64,000 nucleotides of DNA from assembly GCF_014645895.1 (NCBI RefSeq), contig NZ_BMMP01000002.1, forward strand, positions 62,001 to 126,000, in the 5' to 3' direction. Positions 45,498 through 55,626 of the stretch are shown piece after piece. The notes under the pieces are model-generated. The model made no database searches. It saw only the letters and a list, made by a program, of their open reading frames with translations, and was not told the DNA's origin. The translations under genes were made by a program, and so were the position numbers. Source of the stretch: Streptomyces daqingensis. GTDB lineage: Bacteria > Actinomycetota > Actinomycetes > Streptomycetales > Streptomycetaceae. The stretch's first letter is position 1. Each line of letters begins with the position of its first letter.

Positions 45498-47105
45498 CTA
45501 CGCGGCCTTCCGGCCCCGCTGTGCGCCTGCGGCACCGTAGCCGCGACCCGCCGCCGGCGCGGCCGTCGTCCTGCGCCGCCCGCTCTGGCGCCGCGGCCGC
45601 CCGCCGGCCGCTCCGCGGTCGGAGCCCGCTCCGCCGCGGCCCGCCTCGCCGCTCCGGTTCGCCGCGGCGCTCCGGTTGGCGGAGCCGCTGCCGCGCCTGC
45701 GGTTCCCGGCGCGTCCGCGGGACTGCTTGTCCGGCTCGGGCGCGGCGACGGTCACCGGCACGCCGGACGGCTCCCGCGCCCCGGTGAGCTGCGCGAGCTC
45801 GGCGTCCCGCGAGCCGGCGGTCATGGTCTGGGCGCTGATGCCCACGGCAGCCATGAGGCGGCTGATGTCCCGCCGCTCCTCGGGGAGCACGAGGGTGAGC
45901 ACGCTGCCCGAGGCGCCGGCCCGGGCGGTGCGCCCGCCGCGATGCAGGTAGTCCTTGTGGTCCGTGGGCGGATCCACGTTGACGACGAGGTCGAGGTCGT
46001 CGATGTGGATGCCCCGAGCCGCCACGTTGGTGGCCACGAGAACGGTGACGTGGCCGGTCTTGAAGTGCTCCAGCGCGCGGTTGCGCTGCGACTGCGACTT
46101 CCCGCCGTGCAGCGCCACCGCGCGGACGCCCTTGCGCAGCAGGTCTTTCGTCATCCGGTCCACGGAGCGCTTGGTGTCTCGGAACATCAGCACCCGCCCG
46201 TCGCGCGCGGCGATCCTCGTGGCGGTGTCCGCCTTGTCGGTGCTCGCGACGTGGACGACGTGGTGGTCCATCTCGGTGACGGCGCCCGCGGAGGCGTCGA
46301 CGGAGTGGACGACCGGGTCGGTCAGGAACATCCGGACGAGCCGGTCGACCTCGCGGTCGAGCGTGGCGGAGAACAGCATCCGCTGCCCGTCACCGGGCAC
46401 CTGCTTGAGCAGGGCCGTGACCTGCGGAAGGAAGCCCATGTCGGCCATCTGGTCCGCCTCGTCCAGGACCGAGATGCGCACGTCCTCCAGGCTGCAGTCG
46501 CCCCGGTCGATGAGGTCCTTCAGCCGTCCGGGGGTGGCGACGAGCACCTCCGCACCGCTGCGCAGCGCGTTGGTCTGCCGCGAGATCGCCATGCCGCCGA
46601 CGACGGTCGTGAGCCGCAGCCGCAGCGGACGGGCGTACGGCGTGAGCGCGTCGGTGACCTGCTGGGCCAGCTCCCTGGTGGGCACCAGGACGAGCGCCAG
46701 CGGCTTCCGGGGCTCCGCGCGCCGGGTGGCGGTACGGGCCAGCAGCGCGAGACCGAAGGCGAGCGTCTTGCCCGATCCGGTGCGGCCGCGGCCGAGGACG
46801 TCCCGTCCGGCGAGGGAGTTGGGCAGCGTCGCCCCCTGGATCGGGAACGGCTCGGTGACGCCCTCCTGCGTCAGGGCCGCCAGCAGGGGCGCGGGCATGT
46901 CGAGTTCGGCGAACGAGCTCACCGGGGGCAGAGCGGGGGTCGTGCTGACCGGCAGCGCGAACTCCTGGGGCGGGCCCGCCGGCTGACGCTTGGGCGCCGC
47001 GCCGCGGGAGCGCCCGGGACGCTGCCGGCTGTTGCGGCGGGGGCCGCCGGCGCGCTCGGAGGGGCGGCCCGCGGAACGTGAGGTGTTACGGGTGGGGCGA
47101 TTCAC
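45498..47105 (-). CDS. DEAD-box ATP-dependent RNA helicase
   Basis: 535 aa from GTG 47105. Q-motif region FAELDMPAPLLAAL...PFPIQGATLP; motif I GRTGSGKT; Ia PTRELAQ; Ib TPGRL; II DEAD in VLDEADQM; III SAT in LFSATLD; V ATNVAARGIHID; VI HRGGRTARAG. All key residues are intact. N-terminal basic tail of about 60 residues and a C-terminal RGG/Arg-Ala tail of about 110 residues (GNRRRGSGSANRS, GGRPRRQSGRRR) for RNA binding. It unwinds mRNA or rRNA structure; placement beside a cold-shock gene (168 bases apart, same strand) suggests low-temperature RNA remodelling. Confidence 0.93.
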   Translation of the reverse strand: MNRPTRNTSRSAGRPSERAGGPRRNSRQRPGRSRGAAPKRQPAGPPQEFALPVSTTPALPPVSSFAELDMPAPLLAALTQEGVTEPFPIQGATLPNSLAGRDVLGRGRTGSGKTLAFGLALLARTATRRAEPRKPLALVLVPTRELAQQVTDALTPYARPLRLRLTTVVGGMAISRQTNALRSGAEVLVATPGRLKDLIDRGDCSLEDVRISVLDEADQMADMGFLPQVTALLKQVPGDGQRMLFSATLDREVDRLVRMFLTDPVVHSVDASAGAVTEMDHHVVHVASTDKADTATRIAARDGRVLMFRDTKRSVDRMTKDLLRKGVRAVALHGGKSQSQRNRALEHFKTGHVTVLVATNVAARGIHIDDLDLVVNVDPPTDHKDYLHRGGRTARAGASGSVLTLVLPEERRDISRLMAAVGISAQTMTAGSRDAELAQLTGAREPSGVPVTVAAPEPDKQSRGRAGNRRRGSGSANRSAAANRSGEAGRGGAGSDRGAAGGRPRRQSGRRRTTAAPAAGRGYGAAGAQRGRKAA

Positions 47106-47669: not shown

Positions 47670-48656
47670 TCAGTGATGCGGGTCATGTCCGGGAACGGTG
47701 CCGTCCGGTTTTGCCACCAGAAGCAGCCCTGCCATGCCCATGTCGGAATGGCTCTGTACGTGGCAGTGGTACATCCACGCACCCGCGCCCGCTTCCTCGC
47801 CGGCGATGATCTGGAAGCCGAAGGAGTCGGCAGGGCCCGTGATCTTGTTGTCGATGACGCGGCTGGGGTCGCCGGGCCCCTCCAGCAGCCCCGTGCGGTT
47901 GTCGGCCCAGCGATGACCGTGCACGTGGAAGGTGTGGTAGTACTCGCCGTGCGTGATCATGACGATCTCGACCCGGTCGTTCACCGTGACCTTGAAGTCG
48001 GGCCCCTTTGGCAGGTTGTTGATCGTCATGTCGTTGAAGACGATGGTGAGTTGCTCGTCGGGGAGGGGGTCGCCCTCCCGGCGCACGACGAGCGGCCCGT
48101 AGAGCCCGGCCCGTATCCCGCCGGTGCCGTGGTCGGTCCCCACGACGTGGTCGTGATAGTGCCAGTACCCGGCACTGCCGGCGCGGTACGTCCCGTCCTT
48201 CCGCTTGCCGGGGGCGTGGGTGCGCCAGGTGTAGGTGCGCTTGGCGCCGGGCTCGACGATGCTGTGGTTCATCCTTGTGCCGTCGTTCGCCCGGTCGTAG
48301 TCGACGCCGTGCGGGTGGAGGCTGACCGCGACGTCGGTGGCGTTCTCGAGCTCGACGTGCAGGGTGTCGCCCTCGACGAGTTCGACCAGCGGGCCGGGGA
48401 TCGTCGCTTCGCCCTTCTCCAGGCCGTAGCCGATCTGGTCGTCCCCCAGCCTCTCCGCGAAGAGCTTCATGTGGCGCACCTCGCCTCCCGCACGGGCGCG
48501 GCGCGGCGACGCGGCGGAGGCGGCTGAGGCGGAGGCCGGAGAGGCGACGGCGGGTGCGGCGGGGAGGGCGGCCGGGGCGAGCGCGGCGGCCGCGGAACCG
48601 GCGAGGAGGCGTCTGCTGAAGCTACGGCGGGCGAGGTGTCCGGACGGGCGTGTCAT
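47670..48656 (-). CDS. Tat-exported small laccase (two-domain multicopper oxidase)
   Basis: 328 aa from ATG 48656 with AAGGGGGA upstream. The leader [21 protein letters not shown] carries twin arginines, so export is folded through Tat. Copper motifs: [29 protein letters not shown] and the type 1 site [12 protein letters not shown] (Cys, His and axial Met). Only two cupredoxin domains are present, so it should act as a homotrimer like the S. coelicolor laccase SLAC. Oxidises phenols with O2. Divergent from the ThuA/PQQ operon; an inverted repeat lies between them. Confidence 0.93.
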
Positions 48657-48754
48657 CGGTCCCCCTTCGGCGTCGGCCTGAACTGCCGCTGGGCGCCCAG
48701 GCGTTGAGGTGAGCCGAGAAGGACGGTAGCGCCGCCTCCGGCGTTTATCCAGAT

Positions 48755-48780
48755 CCAGGACAAAGTTCGTTGAATCCTGG
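48755..48780. promoter_or_regulatory. Inverted repeat between laccase and ThuA operon
   Basis: CCAGGA (48755-48760) and TCCTGG (48775-48780) flank a 14-base AT-rich spacer that itself contains TTC-GTT-GAA. It sits just upstream of the rightward -35, a usual place for a repressor or activator site. Confidence 0.4.
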
Positions 48781-48789
48781 TCATAGCTC

Positions 48790-48818
48790 TTGGCGTTCCA
48801 CCGAAAGACGTCTACCTT
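48790..48818 (+). promoter_or_regulatory. Promoter of the ThuA/PQQ operon
   Basis: TTGGCG (48790-48795), 17-base spacer, TACCTT (48813-48818), about 39 bases before the start codon. Confidence 0.5.
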
Positions 48819-48856
48819 CATCGTCGTTTCTGTGACTTAAGAGGGGTGGAGCAGTC

Positions 48857-51367
48857 ATGCGGCTCGAACCGCATCAAATGCCCTCAGACCCACGAGGGTT
48901 GCGCACGTCACGACGGCGGTCACGGCGAGTCAGGCTCGCGGCGCTCCTGGCGGGGGCGGTCGCGGCCTCCCTGCTCGGCGGCTCGCCGGCCCTCGCGGGC
49001 ACCGCTCCAGAACCGTCCGTTCCGAAACTCCGACTCCCCAGCCCACCGGGCGGGGACGACGTACGCGTACTCGTCTTCCACGGCTCCGCGGGAGAGGAAC
49101 CGCCGACCGTGGACGCCGGGATCGAGGCGATCGAGGCGATCGGCCGCAGCGGTCCCGCGGCGGAGCGCTTCACCATCACCGCCACCGGCGACCCCTCGGT
49201 CTTCGCCACCGAGAAGCTCGGCCGGTACAACGCCGTCGTCTTCCTCAGCGGCGGCGGGGACGTGCTCGACCCGGCCCAGGAAGCCGGCCTGGAGAGCTAC
49301 ATGGAGGCCGGCGGCGGCTTCCTCGGAGTCCACGACGCGGCGCGGGCCGAGCCGTACTCCGAGTGGTTCGGCGGCCTCGTGGGCGCCCGTCCCGCCGACG
49401 GCGCCCCCGGGAAGGTGCAGCGCGCCACCGTGGAGACGGGCGACCGGCGCAACCCCTCGACCAGGGACCTGCCCGCCGAATGGAAACGTCCGGACCGCTG
49501 GCTCAACTGGGCGGAGAACCCCAGCGGTTCGGTGCACACCGTGGCGCGCGTGCGGGAGAGCACGTACAGCCCCGGCGAGGGCGCCATGGGCTGGGACCAC
49601 CCGGTCTCCTGGTGCCGCGACTACGACGGCGGCCGGTCCTTCTACACCGGCATGGGCGGCACCGCGGACAGCTTCCAGGAGGCCGACTTCCGGACGCATC
49701 TGCGCGGCGCCCTGATGTGGACCACGCGCCTGGCGCGTGCCGACTGCAAGGCGACGATCACCTCCAACTACGAGGCGAAGCGCCTGACTTCGCCGAACAA
49801 GCCGGGCGAGTCCGATCAGATCGGGGAACCGCACGGCCTGGCCACCGCCGACGACGGCCGGGTCTACTACATCGGGCGCGGCGGCGGCGACGCGGAAGCC
49901 CCCGTGGTCACCGACTGGGAGGACCCGGAGATCGGCAAGGGCGAGGGCACCGTCCACGTCTGGGACCCGGCGACGGAGAAGGCCGAGAAGGTCGGCTCGC
50001 TGACGGTCTTCGGGAACAAGGGCGGCGGCGACGAACTCGTCAAGGTCGAGGAGGGATTGCTCGGCATCGCCCTCGACCCCGGATTCGCCTCCAACGGCTG
50101 GATGTACCTGCACTGGACGCCGCACTCCGAACTCGACCGTGACACGCACATGGCCGAGCGCCGCGTCTCCCGCTTCACCGTGGACGCGAAGACGGGGAAG
50201 CTCGACGAGTCCTCGGAGAAGGTGCTGCTGAAGTGGCCCGTGCAGGTGCACAGTTGCTGCCACGCGGGCGGCGGCATGGCCTTCGACTCGAGGCACAACC
50301 TGTACATCGCCACGGGTGACAACAACTCCTCGCAGTTCAGCGACGGTTACTCCGGCAACAACCCCGAGCCCGACTTCAAGGGCGTCTCCTTCGCCGACGC
50401 CCGCCGCACCGCCGGCAACACCAACAACCTCAACGGCAAGATCCTGCGCATCCACCCCGAGGACGACGGCACCTACACGCTGCCCGAGGGGAACCTCTTC
50501 ACCGGCGAGGAGGACGACGAGGGCGGCGGCAAGACGCGCGGTGAGATCTATGTGATGGGCGTGCGCAACCCGGCCAGGATCTCCGTCGACACCGAGACCG
50601 ACACCCTCTACGCGGGGTGGGTGGGCCCCGACGCCGGCGCGCCCAGCACCACATGGGGGCCGGCCAAGTACGACACGTTCGCCCGGATCACGAAGGCCGG
50701 CAACCACGGCTGGCCGTACTGCATGGGCAACAAGCAGCCCTACCGCGACCGCAACCTGCCCGACCCGGAGAAACCCCTCGACTGGTACGACTGCGACCGG
50801 TTGCAGAACGAGTCGCCCAACAACGACGGCCTCGTGGACATCCCGCCCGCCGAGCCCAACAACATCTGGTACTCGCCCCAGGGCGGCGCCCCCGACTACC
50901 CGCGCGACGAGAACGGCGTGCCCAGTTACAAGGAGGACGAGCAGGAGCTGCTGCTGCCCTGGCTCAAGGGCGGCGGCCAGGCCACCATGAACGGCCCGGT
51001 GTACCGCTACGACGCCTCCACGGCCTCGGAGGAGAAGTGGCCCGCGTACTGGGACGGCAAGTGGTTCGTGGGCGACTTCTACGACCAGGAGCAGCCCAGG
51101 CACGCCGTCGTGATGCCGGACGGCGACGAGGCGGGGGCGCTGCCCGTGCACGCCGAGAGCCTGCGCAAGATCATCCCCATCGGGGAGGGCGGCATCCGCA
51201 ACCTGATGGACTGGAAGTTCGCTCCGGACGGTTCGCTCTACGTGCTCGACTACGGCCGCGGCTTCTTCACCTCGGACGACAAGTCCGCGCTGTGGCGCGT
51301 GAGTTACAAGGGCGGGGCGGCGACGCCGAAGCCGGGCGACGTGGTCGGAGAGGCGGCAGGCCGATGA
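48857..51367 (+). CDS. Secreted ThuA-PQQ-type sugar dehydrogenase fusion
   Basis: 836 aa. The signal peptide is about residues 22-47 (VRLAALLAGAVAASLLGGSPALA). Residues 68-290 are a ThuA (trehalose-utilisation, class I glutamine-amidotransferase-like) domain: VRVLVFHGSAGEE, YNAVVFLSGGGDVLD, GGGFLGVHDAARAEPYSEWFGGLVG. Residues 320-820 form a six-bladed GSDH-type beta-propeller: GEPHGLATADDGRVYYI, GGDELVKVEEGLLGIALDPGF, HSCCHAGGGMAFD, GNTNNLNGKILRI, GVRNPARISVD. Such propellers oxidise sugars with PQQ or act on keto sugars. Likely extracellular or wall-associated. Its stop overlaps the next gene (ATGA). The donor/acceptor pair is unknown. Confidence 0.9.
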   Translation: MRLEPHQMPSDPRGLRTSRRRSRRVRLAALLAGAVAASLLGGSPALAGTAPEPSVPKLRLPSPPGGDDVRVLVFHGSAGEEPPTVDAGIEAIEAIGRSGPAAERFTITATGDPSVFATEKLGRYNAVVFLSGGGDVLDPAQEAGLESYMEAGGGFLGVHDAARAEPYSEWFGGLVGARPADGAPGKVQRATVETGDRRNPSTRDLPAEWKRPDRWLNWAENPSGSVHTVARVRESTYSPGEGAMGWDHPVSWCRDYDGGRSFYTGMGGTADSFQEADFRTHLRGALMWTTRLARADCKATITSNYEAKRLTSPNKPGESDQIGEPHGLATADDGRVYYIGRGGGDAEAPVVTDWEDPEIGKGEGTVHVWDPATEKAEKVGSLTVFGNKGGGDELVKVEEGLLGIALDPGFASNGWMYLHWTPHSELDRDTHMAERRVSRFTVDAKTGKLDESSEKVLLKWPVQVHSCCHAGGGMAFDSRHNLYIATGDNNSSQFSDGYSGNNPEPDFKGVSFADARRTAGNTNNLNGKILRIHPEDDGTYTLPEGNLFTGEEDDEGGGKTRGEIYVMGVRNPARISVDTETDTLYAGWVGPDAGAPSTTWGPAKYDTFARITKAGNHGWPYCMGNKQPYRDRNLPDPEKPLDWYDCDRLQNESPNNDGLVDIPPAEPNNIWYSPQGGAPDYPRDENGVPSYKEDEQELLLPWLKGGGQATMNGPVYRYDASTASEEKWPAYWDGKWFVGDFYDQEQPRHAVVMPDGDEAGALPVHAESLRKIIPIGEGGIRNLMDWKFAPDGSLYVLDYGRGFFTSDDKSALWRVSYKGGAATPKPGDVVGEAAGR

Positions 51368-53619
51368 GGACCTACGGCAAGGGCGGTCCTTTCGTGACCG
51401 CCGACCTGCGACGGAGGCGCCGCACGCGCCGTGCGGTCGCCGCCGTGTGCGCGTCGGTGCTGATGCTCCTGGGGCTGGTCTCCGCTCCCGCGCAGGCCCT
51501 CCAGCCTCCGGGAGGAGACGGCACGCGTGCCGAGCAGGTGCTGAACTGGACGGCGAGCGACGACATCACGCGCTACACCTCGGCGCCGGAGACGGCCGTC
51601 GCCGGCGCGGCGACCCTCGTCTTCGAGAACAGCGAGGCGACGGGCAACACGACGTCCATGCCTCACACGCTGACGTTCGTCACCAACGACCCCGACTACA
51701 ACTCCGACGTCGACGTCAACATCCTCGCCAACCCCTCGGACGCGCAGGGAGGCAAGCATTCGGTCGAAGTCACCCTGACCCCCGGGACGTACAAGTACCA
51801 CTGCACGATCCCCGGACACGGCCAGATGCAGGGCACGCTGGTCGTCACCGACGGCGGCGGAGGCGGGGACACCACGCCGCCGGAGACGTCGGCGAAGGTG
51901 GAGGGCGACCAGAACGCCGACGGCGCCTACATCGGCATGGCCACCGTGAGCGTGACCGCGACCGACGAGGGCGGCAGCGGGGTCGACACCGTCGAGTACG
52001 CCCTGGGCGACGGCGGCTACCAGGCCTACACCGAGCCCGTGATGGTGCACGAGACGGGCGAGCACACCTTCCGCTACAGAGCCACCGACAAGGACGGCAA
52101 CGTGGCGGAGGAGAAGTCGGTGAAGTTCACCGTCGTCGCTCCTCCGACCGACGACACCACGCCGCCGGAGACGTCCGCGACGGTCGACGGTGAACAGGAC
52201 GCCGACGGCGCCTACATCGGCATGGCGACCGTCACCGTCTCCGCCTCGGACGCCGGCTCCGGCGTCAACAAGGTCGAATTCGCCCTGGGCGACGGCGAGT
52301 TCCAGCCCTACACGGCTCCGGTGATGGTGCACGAGCCGGGTGACCACGCCGTCCGCTACCGGGCCACGGACAAGGCCGGCAACGCCGCCGAGGTGAAGAC
52401 GGCCGAGTTCACGGTGGTGGAGCAGCCCGAGGAGGACACCACACCGCCGGCGACCACCGCGACGACGGAGGGCAGGCAGAACTCCGACGGGCACTACCTC
52501 GGCAAGGCGACCGTCACCGTCGCCGCGAGCGACGAGGGCTCGGGCGTGGAGAAGGTCGAATACTCCCTGGACGGCGGCCCGTTTCTCGCCTACGAGGACC
52601 CGGTCGTCGTCGACCGGGCCGGCCACCACAGCGTCGCGCACCGGGCGACCGACAAGGCGGGCAACACCTCGCAGGCGGTCTCGGAATCCTTCGACGTCGT
52701 CCCCGGCGGCGGCGTCCCCGCGCCGGACTGCCCCGAGTACGACGAGCGGCCGACCGTCTTCATCGGGGAGACCGACACCGGGGTGCCCAACCGCATGACG
52801 GGGCGGCGGTGCACCGTCGGCGAGCTGATCGAGGACGAGAAGGACTGGTCCTCGCACGCCCTGTTCGTCAAGCACGTCACGGAGGTCGCCGGCGAACTGC
52901 TCGACGAGAAGGTGCTCGACGAGCGGGAACGCAAGCTCATCGTGCGGGCCGCGAAAGCCTCCGGGATCGGCGAACCCGGCCAGCAGGAGGGCTACAAGAA
53001 GCTGTTCGACGGGACGAAGGAGTCCTTCGAGCGGTGGCAGCACGTGGGCGGCGGAGCGTTCGGGCTCCACGACGACGGCTCCATGACCAGCAGCACCGAG
53101 ACCGAGGGCATGGGGATGCTGTGGTATCCGAAGCGCAAGTACGGCGACTACTCGCTGAAGCTCCAGTTCCGTGACGACGCGCCGGGGGACGGCAACGCCA
53201 ACGCCGGTGTCTTCGCCCGCTTCCCGTACGTCCACGACCACCCCGAGGAGTCACGTCCCGAGTGGGTGGCCATCAAGTACGGGCACGAGCTGCAGATCCT
53301 CGACAGGCCCGACGGCGACATGTACAAGACGGGCTCCGTGTACGGCTTCGACCGGGTGAGCCTGGCCGGTGCGGGAGTCACGCCGAAGGGCACATGGAAC
53401 GACTACGAGGTCAAGGTCGTCGGGCAGCGCTACTCCGTCTACCGGAACGGGGAGCTGATCAACGAGTTCGACAACAAGGGCGGCCAGGTCTTCACACCGC
53501 CCCGCGACGACGATCCCGGAACGGACGGGCGGCGCTACGCCTCGGGGTACATCGGCCTCCAGGTGCACGGCGTCACCGACGTGATCTCTTACCGGGACGT
53601 GCGGATCAAGGAGTTGTAG
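51364..53619 (+). CDS. Secreted cupredoxin / Ig-like repeat / DUF1080 protein
   Basis: 751 aa, ATG overlapping the previous stop. After the signal (RRAVAAVCASVLMLLGLVSAPAQA, about 22-45), residues 50-165 are a plastocyanin-like domain with all four type 1 copper ligands: H101, C147, H152 and M155 (YHCTIPGHGQM). Three Ig-like (OmpL47-type) repeats starting DTTPPE span about 170-446. After a 90-residue linker of unknown fold, DUF1080 (3-keto-disaccharide hydrolase family) runs from about 540 to the end (YKKLFDGTKESFERW, YGDYSLKLQFR, GDMYKTGSVYGFD, GYIGLQVHG). Probable role: extracellular electron acceptance by the copper site and cleavage of a 3-keto-glycoside. Confidence 0.9.
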   Translation: MRTYGKGGPFVTADLRRRRRTRRAVAAVCASVLMLLGLVSAPAQALQPPGGDGTRAEQVLNWTASDDITRYTSAPETAVAGAATLVFENSEATGNTTSMPHTLTFVTNDPDYNSDVDVNILANPSDAQGGKHSVEVTLTPGTYKYHCTIPGHGQMQGTLVVTDGGGGGDTTPPETSAKVEGDQNADGAYIGMATVSVTATDEGGSGVDTVEYALGDGGYQAYTEPVMVHETGEHTFRYRATDKDGNVAEEKSVKFTVVAPPTDDTTPPETSATVDGEQDADGAYIGMATVTVSASDAGSGVNKVEFALGDGEFQPYTAPVMVHEPGDHAVRYRATDKAGNAAEVKTAEFTVVEQPEEDTTPPATTATTEGRQNSDGHYLGKATVTVAASDEGSGVEKVEYSLDGGPFLAYEDPVVVDRAGHHSVAHRATDKAGNTSQAVSESFDVVPGGGVPAPDCPEYDERPTVFIGETDTGVPNRMTGRRCTVGELIEDEKDWSSHALFVKHVTEVAGELLDEKVLDERERKLIVRAAKASGIGEPGQQEGYKKLFDGTKESFERWQHVGGGAFGLHDDGSMTSSTETEGMGMLWYPKRKYGDYSLKLQFRDDAPGDGNANAGVFARFPYVHDHPEESRPEWVAIKYGHELQILDRPDGDMYKTGSVYGFDRVSLAGAGVTPKGTWNDYEVKVVGQRYSVYRNGELINEFDNKGGQVFTPPRDDDPGTDGRRYASGYIGLQVHGVTDVISYRDVRIKEL
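51870..52700 (+). repeat. Three Ig-like domain repeats
   Basis: Three consecutive units of about 94 residues, beginning near codons 170, 264 and 358, each with DTTPP at the start and ...RATDKxGN... near the end. The first two also share most of their opening DNA (accacgccgccggagacgtc). Confidence 0.8.
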
Positions 53620-54903: not shown

Positions 54904-55626
54904 TCAGGCGGCGTAGCCCTTCGGGGGGATGAGGGAGGCGAGCTGGTCGAAGGAGAGCCAGTAGATCTGGTTGCCGCCGAAGGAGGCCGGGTCGGCGATG
55001 AGCACCGTCCTGTTGGCGTCGTCGTAGCCGATGACGGTGAAGTAGTGGTAGATCGTCTGGTCCGACGGGTAGCCGGGCGGCTGGTTGCCGGGCGGGGCGA
55101 CGATGTTGGTCACCAGCGGGTAGTTGTTGTCGATGTCGAGGACGATGTCGCGCCACAGCAGGTCCTTCTGCTCCTGCGTGGGCGGGTCGTTCGGCATCTC
55201 CTTGGTCTCGTACCAGCCGGTGCCGAGGTTGGCGTTGAGCACGTTCGTGACCTGGCTGATGTGGTCGGTGCCGCCTTCGTGGGTGCCGAGCTGGGCGGCC
55301 AGGTCGGCCTGGCTCGGCGCGCCCATGCGGGCGGAGAGGGCGATGCGCGTCGCCGCCGGGCCGCACCAGTAGCCGGTCTCCTGGACCTGGTAGTCGATCT
55401 CGAGCGTCTTGGCGGCCCTGGTGGAGACGCCGTCGACGTGGAAGCGGGTGCCGGGCTCGTTGTGCCCGCTGACGACGGCGGTGCCGTCGGAGGTGCCGTG
55501 CTCCGTCACCGACACGGACTTGGGCAGGGGCTGTGCCTGCGCGGTCGCCGGGGCGACCAGCACCGCGGCCGCGGTGGTCGCGGCGAGAGCGGTCATGACG
55601 GCGGCGCGGACATGTCTCTTACTCAT
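54904..55626 (-). CDS. Secreted C39-like cysteine peptidase
   Basis: 240 aa from ATG 55626 with AAGGAG upstream. The Sec signal is VMTALAATTAAAVLVAPATAQA (cleavage near residue 32). Catalytic Cys in YQVQETGYWCGPAATRIAL (about 88), His in HYFTVIGYDD, and Asp in VLIADPASFGG: the C39_2 (papain-like) order. Unlike the leader-cleaving C39 domains of ABC transporters, it is free and exported. Substrate unknown; no bacteriocin precursor or transporter is adjacent. Directly follows the esterase gene on the same strand with about 185 bases between. Confidence 0.85.
   Translation of the reverse strand: MSKRHVRAAVMTALAATTAAAVLVAPATAQAQPLPKSVSVTEHGTSDGTAVVSGHNEPGTRFHVDGVSTRAAKTLEIDYQVQETGYWCGPAATRIALSARMGAPSQADLAAQLGTHEGGTDHISQVTNVLNANLGTGWYETKEMPNDPPTQEQKDLLWRDIVLDIDNNYPLVTNIVAPPGNQPPGYPSDQTIYHYFTVIGYDDANRTVLIADPASFGGNQIYWLSFDQLASLIPPKGYAA

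Follow-up and report, generated by a model that had tools for sequence, protein, structure and literature searches.

The 64,000-nucleotide stretch of the Streptomyces daqingensis genome that we analysed (contig NZ_BMMP01000002.1, positions 62,001 to 126,000; hereafter the window) carries a small laccase (SLAC) gene that is divergent from two overlapping genes, one for a ThuA-GSDH fusion and one for a fusion of cupredoxin, three OmpL47-type stretches, a domain X and DUF1080 (P0003; hereafter the third protein). On balance, we consider it probable that these genes specify an extracellular module that processes 3-keto-glycosides, in which SLAC and the type 1 copper protein would form the redox arm. 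As judged from gene order, laccase, ThuA-GSDH and cupredoxin-OmpL47-X-DUF1080 occur together in several actinobacterial families, where the domains are fused in different combinations; within Streptomyces only, an inverted repeat provides a shared candidate operator at the promoters of the laccase, a paralogous operon and a ROK-family regulator gene. The first-pass annotation had listed the system as a candidate for an undescribed one. This does not apply to the laccase itself, which is of the known SLAC type, and it stands for the gene linkage: a literature search, with subscription papers mostly outside it, found no report of a laccase/ThuA-GSDH/cupredoxin-DUF1080 association. The repeat common to the laccase and its operon, the paralogous operon and the ROK gene appears to be new here as well.

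The third protein was used to search the S. daqingensis genome (6.5 Mb) and a draw of 150 genomes of its family. Matches of some kind occurred in 49 of the 150 genomes, many of them to single domains only. A near-complete third gene, in one or more pieces, was found in 27 family genomes besides our own (rearranged in one, G034), and the laccase lay beside ThuA-GSDH in all 27. Named genomes were scanned with a laccase alignment, and the best 80 of 531 confirmed stretches were examined. Both partners stood beside the laccase in 79 of them, including one (L102) whose third gene runs off the contig; in the eightieth (L063), the contig ends ~410 bases from the start of the laccase, on the side where the partners would lie. 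The 27 family loci and the 79 named loci partly overlap. Co-conservation of the laccase with the operon, which the first-pass annotation had proposed as a test of its system, was thus observed in both samples. Of 106 loci, 105 have laccase and ThuA-GSDH in divergent orientation; the other is the rearranged L061. A class-wide draw of 197 genomes contained 16 from the genus; the same 12 of these had both the laccase and the third gene and the other four had neither (Fisher p 0.0005, kinship uncorrected).

Such linkage could be genomic and not functional, the three genes having stayed together in Streptomyces by descent. An ORF (open reading frame) family that looks LigD-like by eye, on the cupredoxin side, is common to 55 of 75 loci, and part of the synteny is therefore inherited. 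However, the most shared ORF family on the laccase side reached 48 of 76 loci, compared with the trio in 79 of the best 80, other families alter domain order and fusions yet retain the set, and copies of the repeat are also found at the paralogue and ROK loci. We regard descent as a very improbable explanation of the whole.

The class-wide draw held 20 genomes of other families with a laccase at E up to 1e-40, and 24 loci from these were examined. ThuA and GSDH stood beside the laccase in 19 of the 24, and DUF1080 was present in 18 of these 19, the remaining one (L181) ending at a contig edge. A cupredoxin was found in 21 of the 24 loci, the exceptions being L178, L192 and the contig-cut L181. 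In the translated examples (L176, L180, L183, L187 and L195), as well as in the family member L061, ThuA, GSDH and DUF1080 are joined in one ORF of ~1350-1420 residues. The usual layout in other families is ThuA-GSDH-X-DUF1080 plus a separate cupredoxin-OmpL47 protein, and the latter ends in X at L061, L180, L183 and L187. The same set persists with different fusions, which is strong evidence for a working unit. The occurrence of X in both partner proteins and the mobility of the cupredoxin-OmpL47 unit raise the possibility of a complex assembled outside the cell. At L173 and L179, a pair of laccases occurs with cupredoxin-OmpL47; ThuA, GSDH and DUF1080 were not seen in the stretch examined there. 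Another locus, L177, is cut by the contig end. Two laccase genes lie side by side at L173, L176, L177, L179, L195 and L196.

The inverted repeat occupies the region between the divergent genes (Table 1). Its strict form was found in 83 of 106 laccase/ThuA-GSDH intergenic regions, and the half-site GGACAAA in 102 of 106. In the S. daqingensis genome, the exact repeat occurs once; forms with two mismatches precede a paralogous GSDH gene and a ROK gene, and a further one, at C8:43929, is close to genes that look unrelated by eye and was taken as chance. The pattern TTTNTCC-N7-GGANAAA, which was fixed after sites had been seen, was present in 93 of 107 laccase intergenic regions (window included), upstream of 9 of 21 paralogous GSDH/ThuA-DUF1080 operons and upstream of 21 of 30 ROK genes; control flanks contained one site in 936,950 bases. 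Because kinship among the genomes makes the loci non-independent, the counts should not be read as probabilities. A looser pattern, applied earlier, picked up 11 of 21 paralogues and, in the control, 4 strand-hits in 1,053,450 bases; another pattern, used without a control, gave 24 of 30 ROK loci, two of which showed the same site (L246 and L251).

All 27 genomes with the gene set, and one of four without it, have an orthologue of the ROK gene (~80-92% identity). In two genomes it adjoins the set: the laccase is 154 bp away in G072, and the cupredoxin gene is 199 bp away in G034. The ROK gene may correspond to SCO6566, a guess from position; SCO6566 is called a ROK family protein in the literature. 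In G044 (L252), the ROK gene is followed by genes for an ABC (ATP-binding cassette) transporter ATPase, a permease, a sugar-binding protein and a Gfo/Idh/MocA protein, and then by a xylose-isomerase-like TIM barrel, GSDH-PKD-CBM6, ThuA-DUF1080 and a MIPS-like protein; library scans of the ROK and ABC ATPase proteins were made on the own-genome copy (L254). The levoglucosan pathway (LgdA/B1/B2/C) leads through a 3-keto sugar to elimination, hydration and reduction, and the Lgd cluster, as the accessible part of PMC7676230 describes it, resembles the ROK locus in having Gfo/Idh and TIM-barrel relatives with a sugar ABC transporter. The shared repeat and a ROK locus with sugar genes therefore support a sugar-regulated extracellular 3-keto-glycoside system.

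Among published ROK sites, the novH operator of RokB, which binds its own promoter, and others share the T-rich/A-rich plan of our repeat, whereas the five genomic RokB sites have A-rich ends and a TVCVT centre (PMC4856308, as far as the available part of that paper goes). A literature search found no description of an operator site for the present ROK group. Outside the genus, a ROK gene of lower similarity (41% identity) is found 332 bp away from the laccase of the L181 region (G359:C8:3613-6055), and in seven genomes (G332, G323, G263, G384, G290, G339 and G368) the best ROK match and a laccase are ~102-187 kb apart on one contig, a spacing that perhaps reflects old synteny. A TGA occurs inside the matched ROK stretch in G033, G083, G089 and G122, and in second copies in G088 and G112; it may be the gene's own stop codon.

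The third protein gave Pfam matches to Copper-bind (28 bits; cut-off 21.2) and 3keto-disac_hyd (PF06439; 117 bits; cut-off 26.8). The three Ig repeats of the first-pass annotation correspond to three OmpL47-type stretches in NCBIfam (257 bits). Conservation of the cupredoxin ligands had been set beforehand as a test that could refute the proposal, and the four ligand residues (Table 1) did not vary in any of the 15 rows of the third-protein family alignment or in any of the 15 rows of an alignment that included distant loci. His-Cys-His-Met is the ligand set of an electron-transfer type 1 copper site. A model of the third protein had a mean pLDDT (predicted local distance difference test) of 71 and a pTM (predicted template modelling score) of 0.36. 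Among many Ig-type matches, Foldseek aligned its DUF1080 region with the 3-keto-glycoside eliminase/hydratases 9fbe and 8rr2 and the 3-keto-2-hydroxy-glucal hydratases 8tda and 8v31, at target TM (template modelling) scores of 0.53-0.58, with pLDDT below 50 in parts of the model domain. The Pfam score and the fold match make DUF1080 a candidate 3-keto-disaccharide hydrolase. The accessible part of PMC9007349 places a 3-ketotrehalose hydrolase among DUF1080 proteins. Three observations thus lend independent support to the link to 3-keto sugars claimed in the first-pass annotation: the repeat that the loci share, the gene content of the ROK/ABC/levoglucosan-dehydrogenase-like locus, and the fold match of DUF1080 to 3-keto-glucal hydratases.

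The gene set resembles bacterial 3-keto-glycoside pathways (BT2157 family, DUF1080) in its DUF1080 domain and fold. It differs in that its DUF1080 protein bears a cupredoxin and adjoins a propeller-family GSDH and a laccase, and in that the module showed no known extracellular 3-dehydrogenase. The X domain, of ~90 residues, was modelled as short strands with two longer helices; elsewhere it stands between GSDH and DUF1080 or, in other families, ends cupredoxin-OmpL47 proteins. Pfam searches gave no match for two of three copies of X. The third copy matched Abhydrolase_10 at E 0.078, which is below cut-off and was taken as chance.

Copper handling could also account for the gene set: the cupredoxin would hold copper outside the cell, as a store or as a donor that loads it into SLAC, and the sugar domains would serve as anchors or act on surface glycans in development. 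Of the laccase neighbours at the 24 distant loci, the cupredoxin is the commonest (21 loci, compared with 19 that have ThuA plus GSDH), which favours this explanation. However, its ligands form the electron-transfer set, the shared repeat links the genes to a sugar-type ROK regulator, and two simple CsoR-like palindrome patterns, the only two forms tried, had no match in 107 laccase intergenic regions. We consider copper handling an unlikely explanation of the set.

The window laccase consists of the Pfam domains Cu-oxidase_3 and Cu-oxidase_2 and aligns to 3cg8 with 523 bits (residues 10-328 of 329), in agreement with the small laccase annotated at first pass; it is of the two-domain type. The signature of two-domain laccases is a set of His-rich Cu motifs that includes HCHxxxHxxMGM. 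These motifs were retained in 17 of 18 laccase rows; the remaining row, L059, has Gln in place of the first His in HYHDH. The nearest named laccases, among the best 80 of 531, were those of S. albidus, S. abyssalis and S. nanshensis (84-88% identity). The S. coelicoflavus laccase, from the same neighbourhood (L141), aligned to 3cg8 across 315 residues (712 bits) and differed from it at few positions, and the S. viridochromogenes laccase (L121) was close to 4m3h. As judged by these relatives, the well-known small laccases of Streptomyces, to which 3cg8 (SCO6712), 4m3h and EpoA are assigned, therefore probably belong to this neighbourhood. The published small-laccase work found in our search gives no account of it. 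SLAC is much used, and the literature searched gave no statement on its natural partners. The cross-family gene set, the candidate regulator and the shared operator-like site make the role of SLAC directly testable and point to sugar metabolism; the neighbourhood suggests extracellular sugar breakdown, rather than phenol oxidation only.

A possible alternative, to which we assign a minor share of the probability, is that SLAC acts on the aglycone. ThuA-GSDH and DUF1080 would use 3-oxidation and beta-elimination to free the phenols of plant or lignin-linked glycosides, SLAC would oxidise these phenols, and the cupredoxin would be a separate shuttle. SLAC oxidised 12 of 23 substrates tested, flavonoids among them (available part of PMC3918160), and a bacterial enzyme beta-eliminates a C3-oxidised phenolic glucoside (PMC10628242, in the portion accessible). 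The DUF1080 fold match is also in keeping with this alternative, which needs no supply of electrons from GSDH to SLAC. It leaves the cupredoxin without a clear task, even though that protein is present at 21 of 24 distant laccase loci, including L173 and L179, where ThuA and GSDH were not seen.

We return to the 3-keto-glycoside module. The ROK protein would repress the gene set until a sugar binds; outside the cell, the GSDH, ThuA and DUF1080 domains would oxidise glycosides at C3 and cleave them, and the sugar or keto sugar would be imported and then reduced inside the cell. SLAC and the cupredoxin are most simply viewed as a redox arm, with electrons coming from the sugar or with SLAC oxidising released phenols. 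More speculatively, electrons could pass from the GSDH domain via the cupredoxin to SLAC and O2. In its full form, this version would make SLAC the terminal oxidase of a respiratory-like extracellular chain that runs from a GSDH-family sugar oxidoreductase through the type 1 cupredoxin to SLAC and O2, yields 3-keto-glycosides under ROK control and has phenol oxidation as a side activity. We propose this chain only tentatively and think it rather unlikely; if true, it would be a new bacterial use of O2 to break glycosidic bonds outside the cell.

Several results weigh against the 3-keto-glycoside module or its electron chain. The pattern TTTNTCC-N7-GGANAAA was missing from 12 of 21 paralogue upstream regions and from 9 of 30 ROK upstream regions, that of the S. 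daqingensis ROK gene included, and the looser form of the repeat was not found outside the genus at 24 laccase and 19 ROK loci. The best NCBIfam match of the Gfo/Idh/MocA protein at the ROK locus was levoglucosan dehydrogenase, at 346 bits, below the cut-off of 650. The laccases of L178 and L192 stand alone. The paralogous sugar operon of the S. daqingensis genome (L062) had no cupredoxin or laccase within the 16 kb examined, so the sugar enzymes seem to need neither. SCO6710, which its number places near SLAC, is listed as putatively repressed by CsoR (copper) in the accessible part of PMC6414726, which would fit a link to copper; a literature search on SCO6710, SCO6711, SCO6713 and SCO6714 turned up only SCO6710, in that paper. 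Gene order and the words 'glycosyl hydrolase' suggest SCO6710 as the gene for cupredoxin-DUF1080 and SCO6711 as that for ThuA-GSDH. The remaining two points concern pyrroloquinoline quinone (PQQ). Arg406 and Arg408 of soluble glucose dehydrogenase (sGDH) align to Asn and Met of ThuA-GSDH, in a weak alignment in which Lys377 lies outside the aligned region. In addition, the PQQ synthesis gene pqqE was not enriched in genomes with the gene set: it was over cut-off in 7 of 28 (7 of 26 plus the own genome and G024, both below cut-off), against 12 of 61 in a genus sample (two genomes shared; Fisher p 0.59).

These two points bear on the PQQ-type dehydrogenase of the first-pass annotation. ThuA-GSDH scored 202 bits for ThuA and 86.7 bits for GSDH (cut-off 25) in Pfam. 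Three of its residues, His469, Arg570 and Asn571, are the same in all 13 rows examined; the first is matched to the sGDH His, and the Arg570-Asn571 pair to an Arg-Asn of 2ism. In these features the domain resembles the soluble PQQ glucose dehydrogenase/GSDH family (1c9u, 2ism, 3a9g), and it differs in being joined to ThuA, in the two arginines left unmatched in the weak alignment and in a host range where pqqE is mostly below cut-off. PQQ synthesis was rejected as support for a PQQ enzyme. Since pqqE was below cut-off in 21 of 28 hosts, S. daqingensis among them, PQQ would have to be scavenged in most. PQQ use by the GSDH domain is thus not supported and appears doubtful, with scavenged PQQ a possible source. 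An AlphaFold model of ThuA-GSDH (mean pLDDT 48.7) was too poor for a fold search.

The three genes annotated at first pass were confirmed as ORFs at their positions (Table 1). The third gene overlaps the ThuA-GSDH stop codon by ATGA; a start at 50617 in the ORF list, on which the first-pass annotation had not relied, was rejected as spurious. By eye, the N-terminus of the laccase contains a twin-arginine motif, and those of ThuA-GSDH and the third protein contain hydrophobic stretches, so that all three proteins look exported, as had been claimed.

Table 1. Positions in the window of the laccase, its partner genes, their domains and the intergenic repeat.
Feature	Position	Strand	Remarks
Laccase, small two-domain SLAC type	47670..48656	-	Longest ORF 47670-48821; likely start ATG 48656 (MTRPSG...)
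Inverted repeat TTTATCC-N7-GGACAAA, candidate ROK operator	48744..48764	.	Between divergent genes
ThuA-GSDH fusion, 836 aa	48857..51367	+	Exported, judged by eye
Cupredoxin-3xOmpL47-X-DUF1080 (3keto-disac_hyd) fusion, P0003, 751 aa	51364..53619	+	Exported, judged by eye
Cupredoxin domain, putative type 1 copper ligands H101, C147, H152, M155 of P0003	51514..51858	+	
X domain, ~90 aa	52714..52983	+	No Pfam match at E up to 5 (this copy)
DUF1080 / putative 3-keto-disaccharide hydrolase domain	52984..53616	+	

The module is followed by genes for a C39-like peptidase (54904-55626) and a putative esterase (PF00756; 55811-57007), on the minus strand; tblastn reported no match to these in the 27 related loci or in the best 80 named loci. 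On the laccase side lie a DEAD-box-helicase-like ORF (by eye; 45498-47105) and a cold-shock protein gene (PF00313; 47274-47615), both on the minus strand. The cold-shock gene was found on the laccase side in 2 of the 27 related family loci and in 7 of the best 80 named loci.

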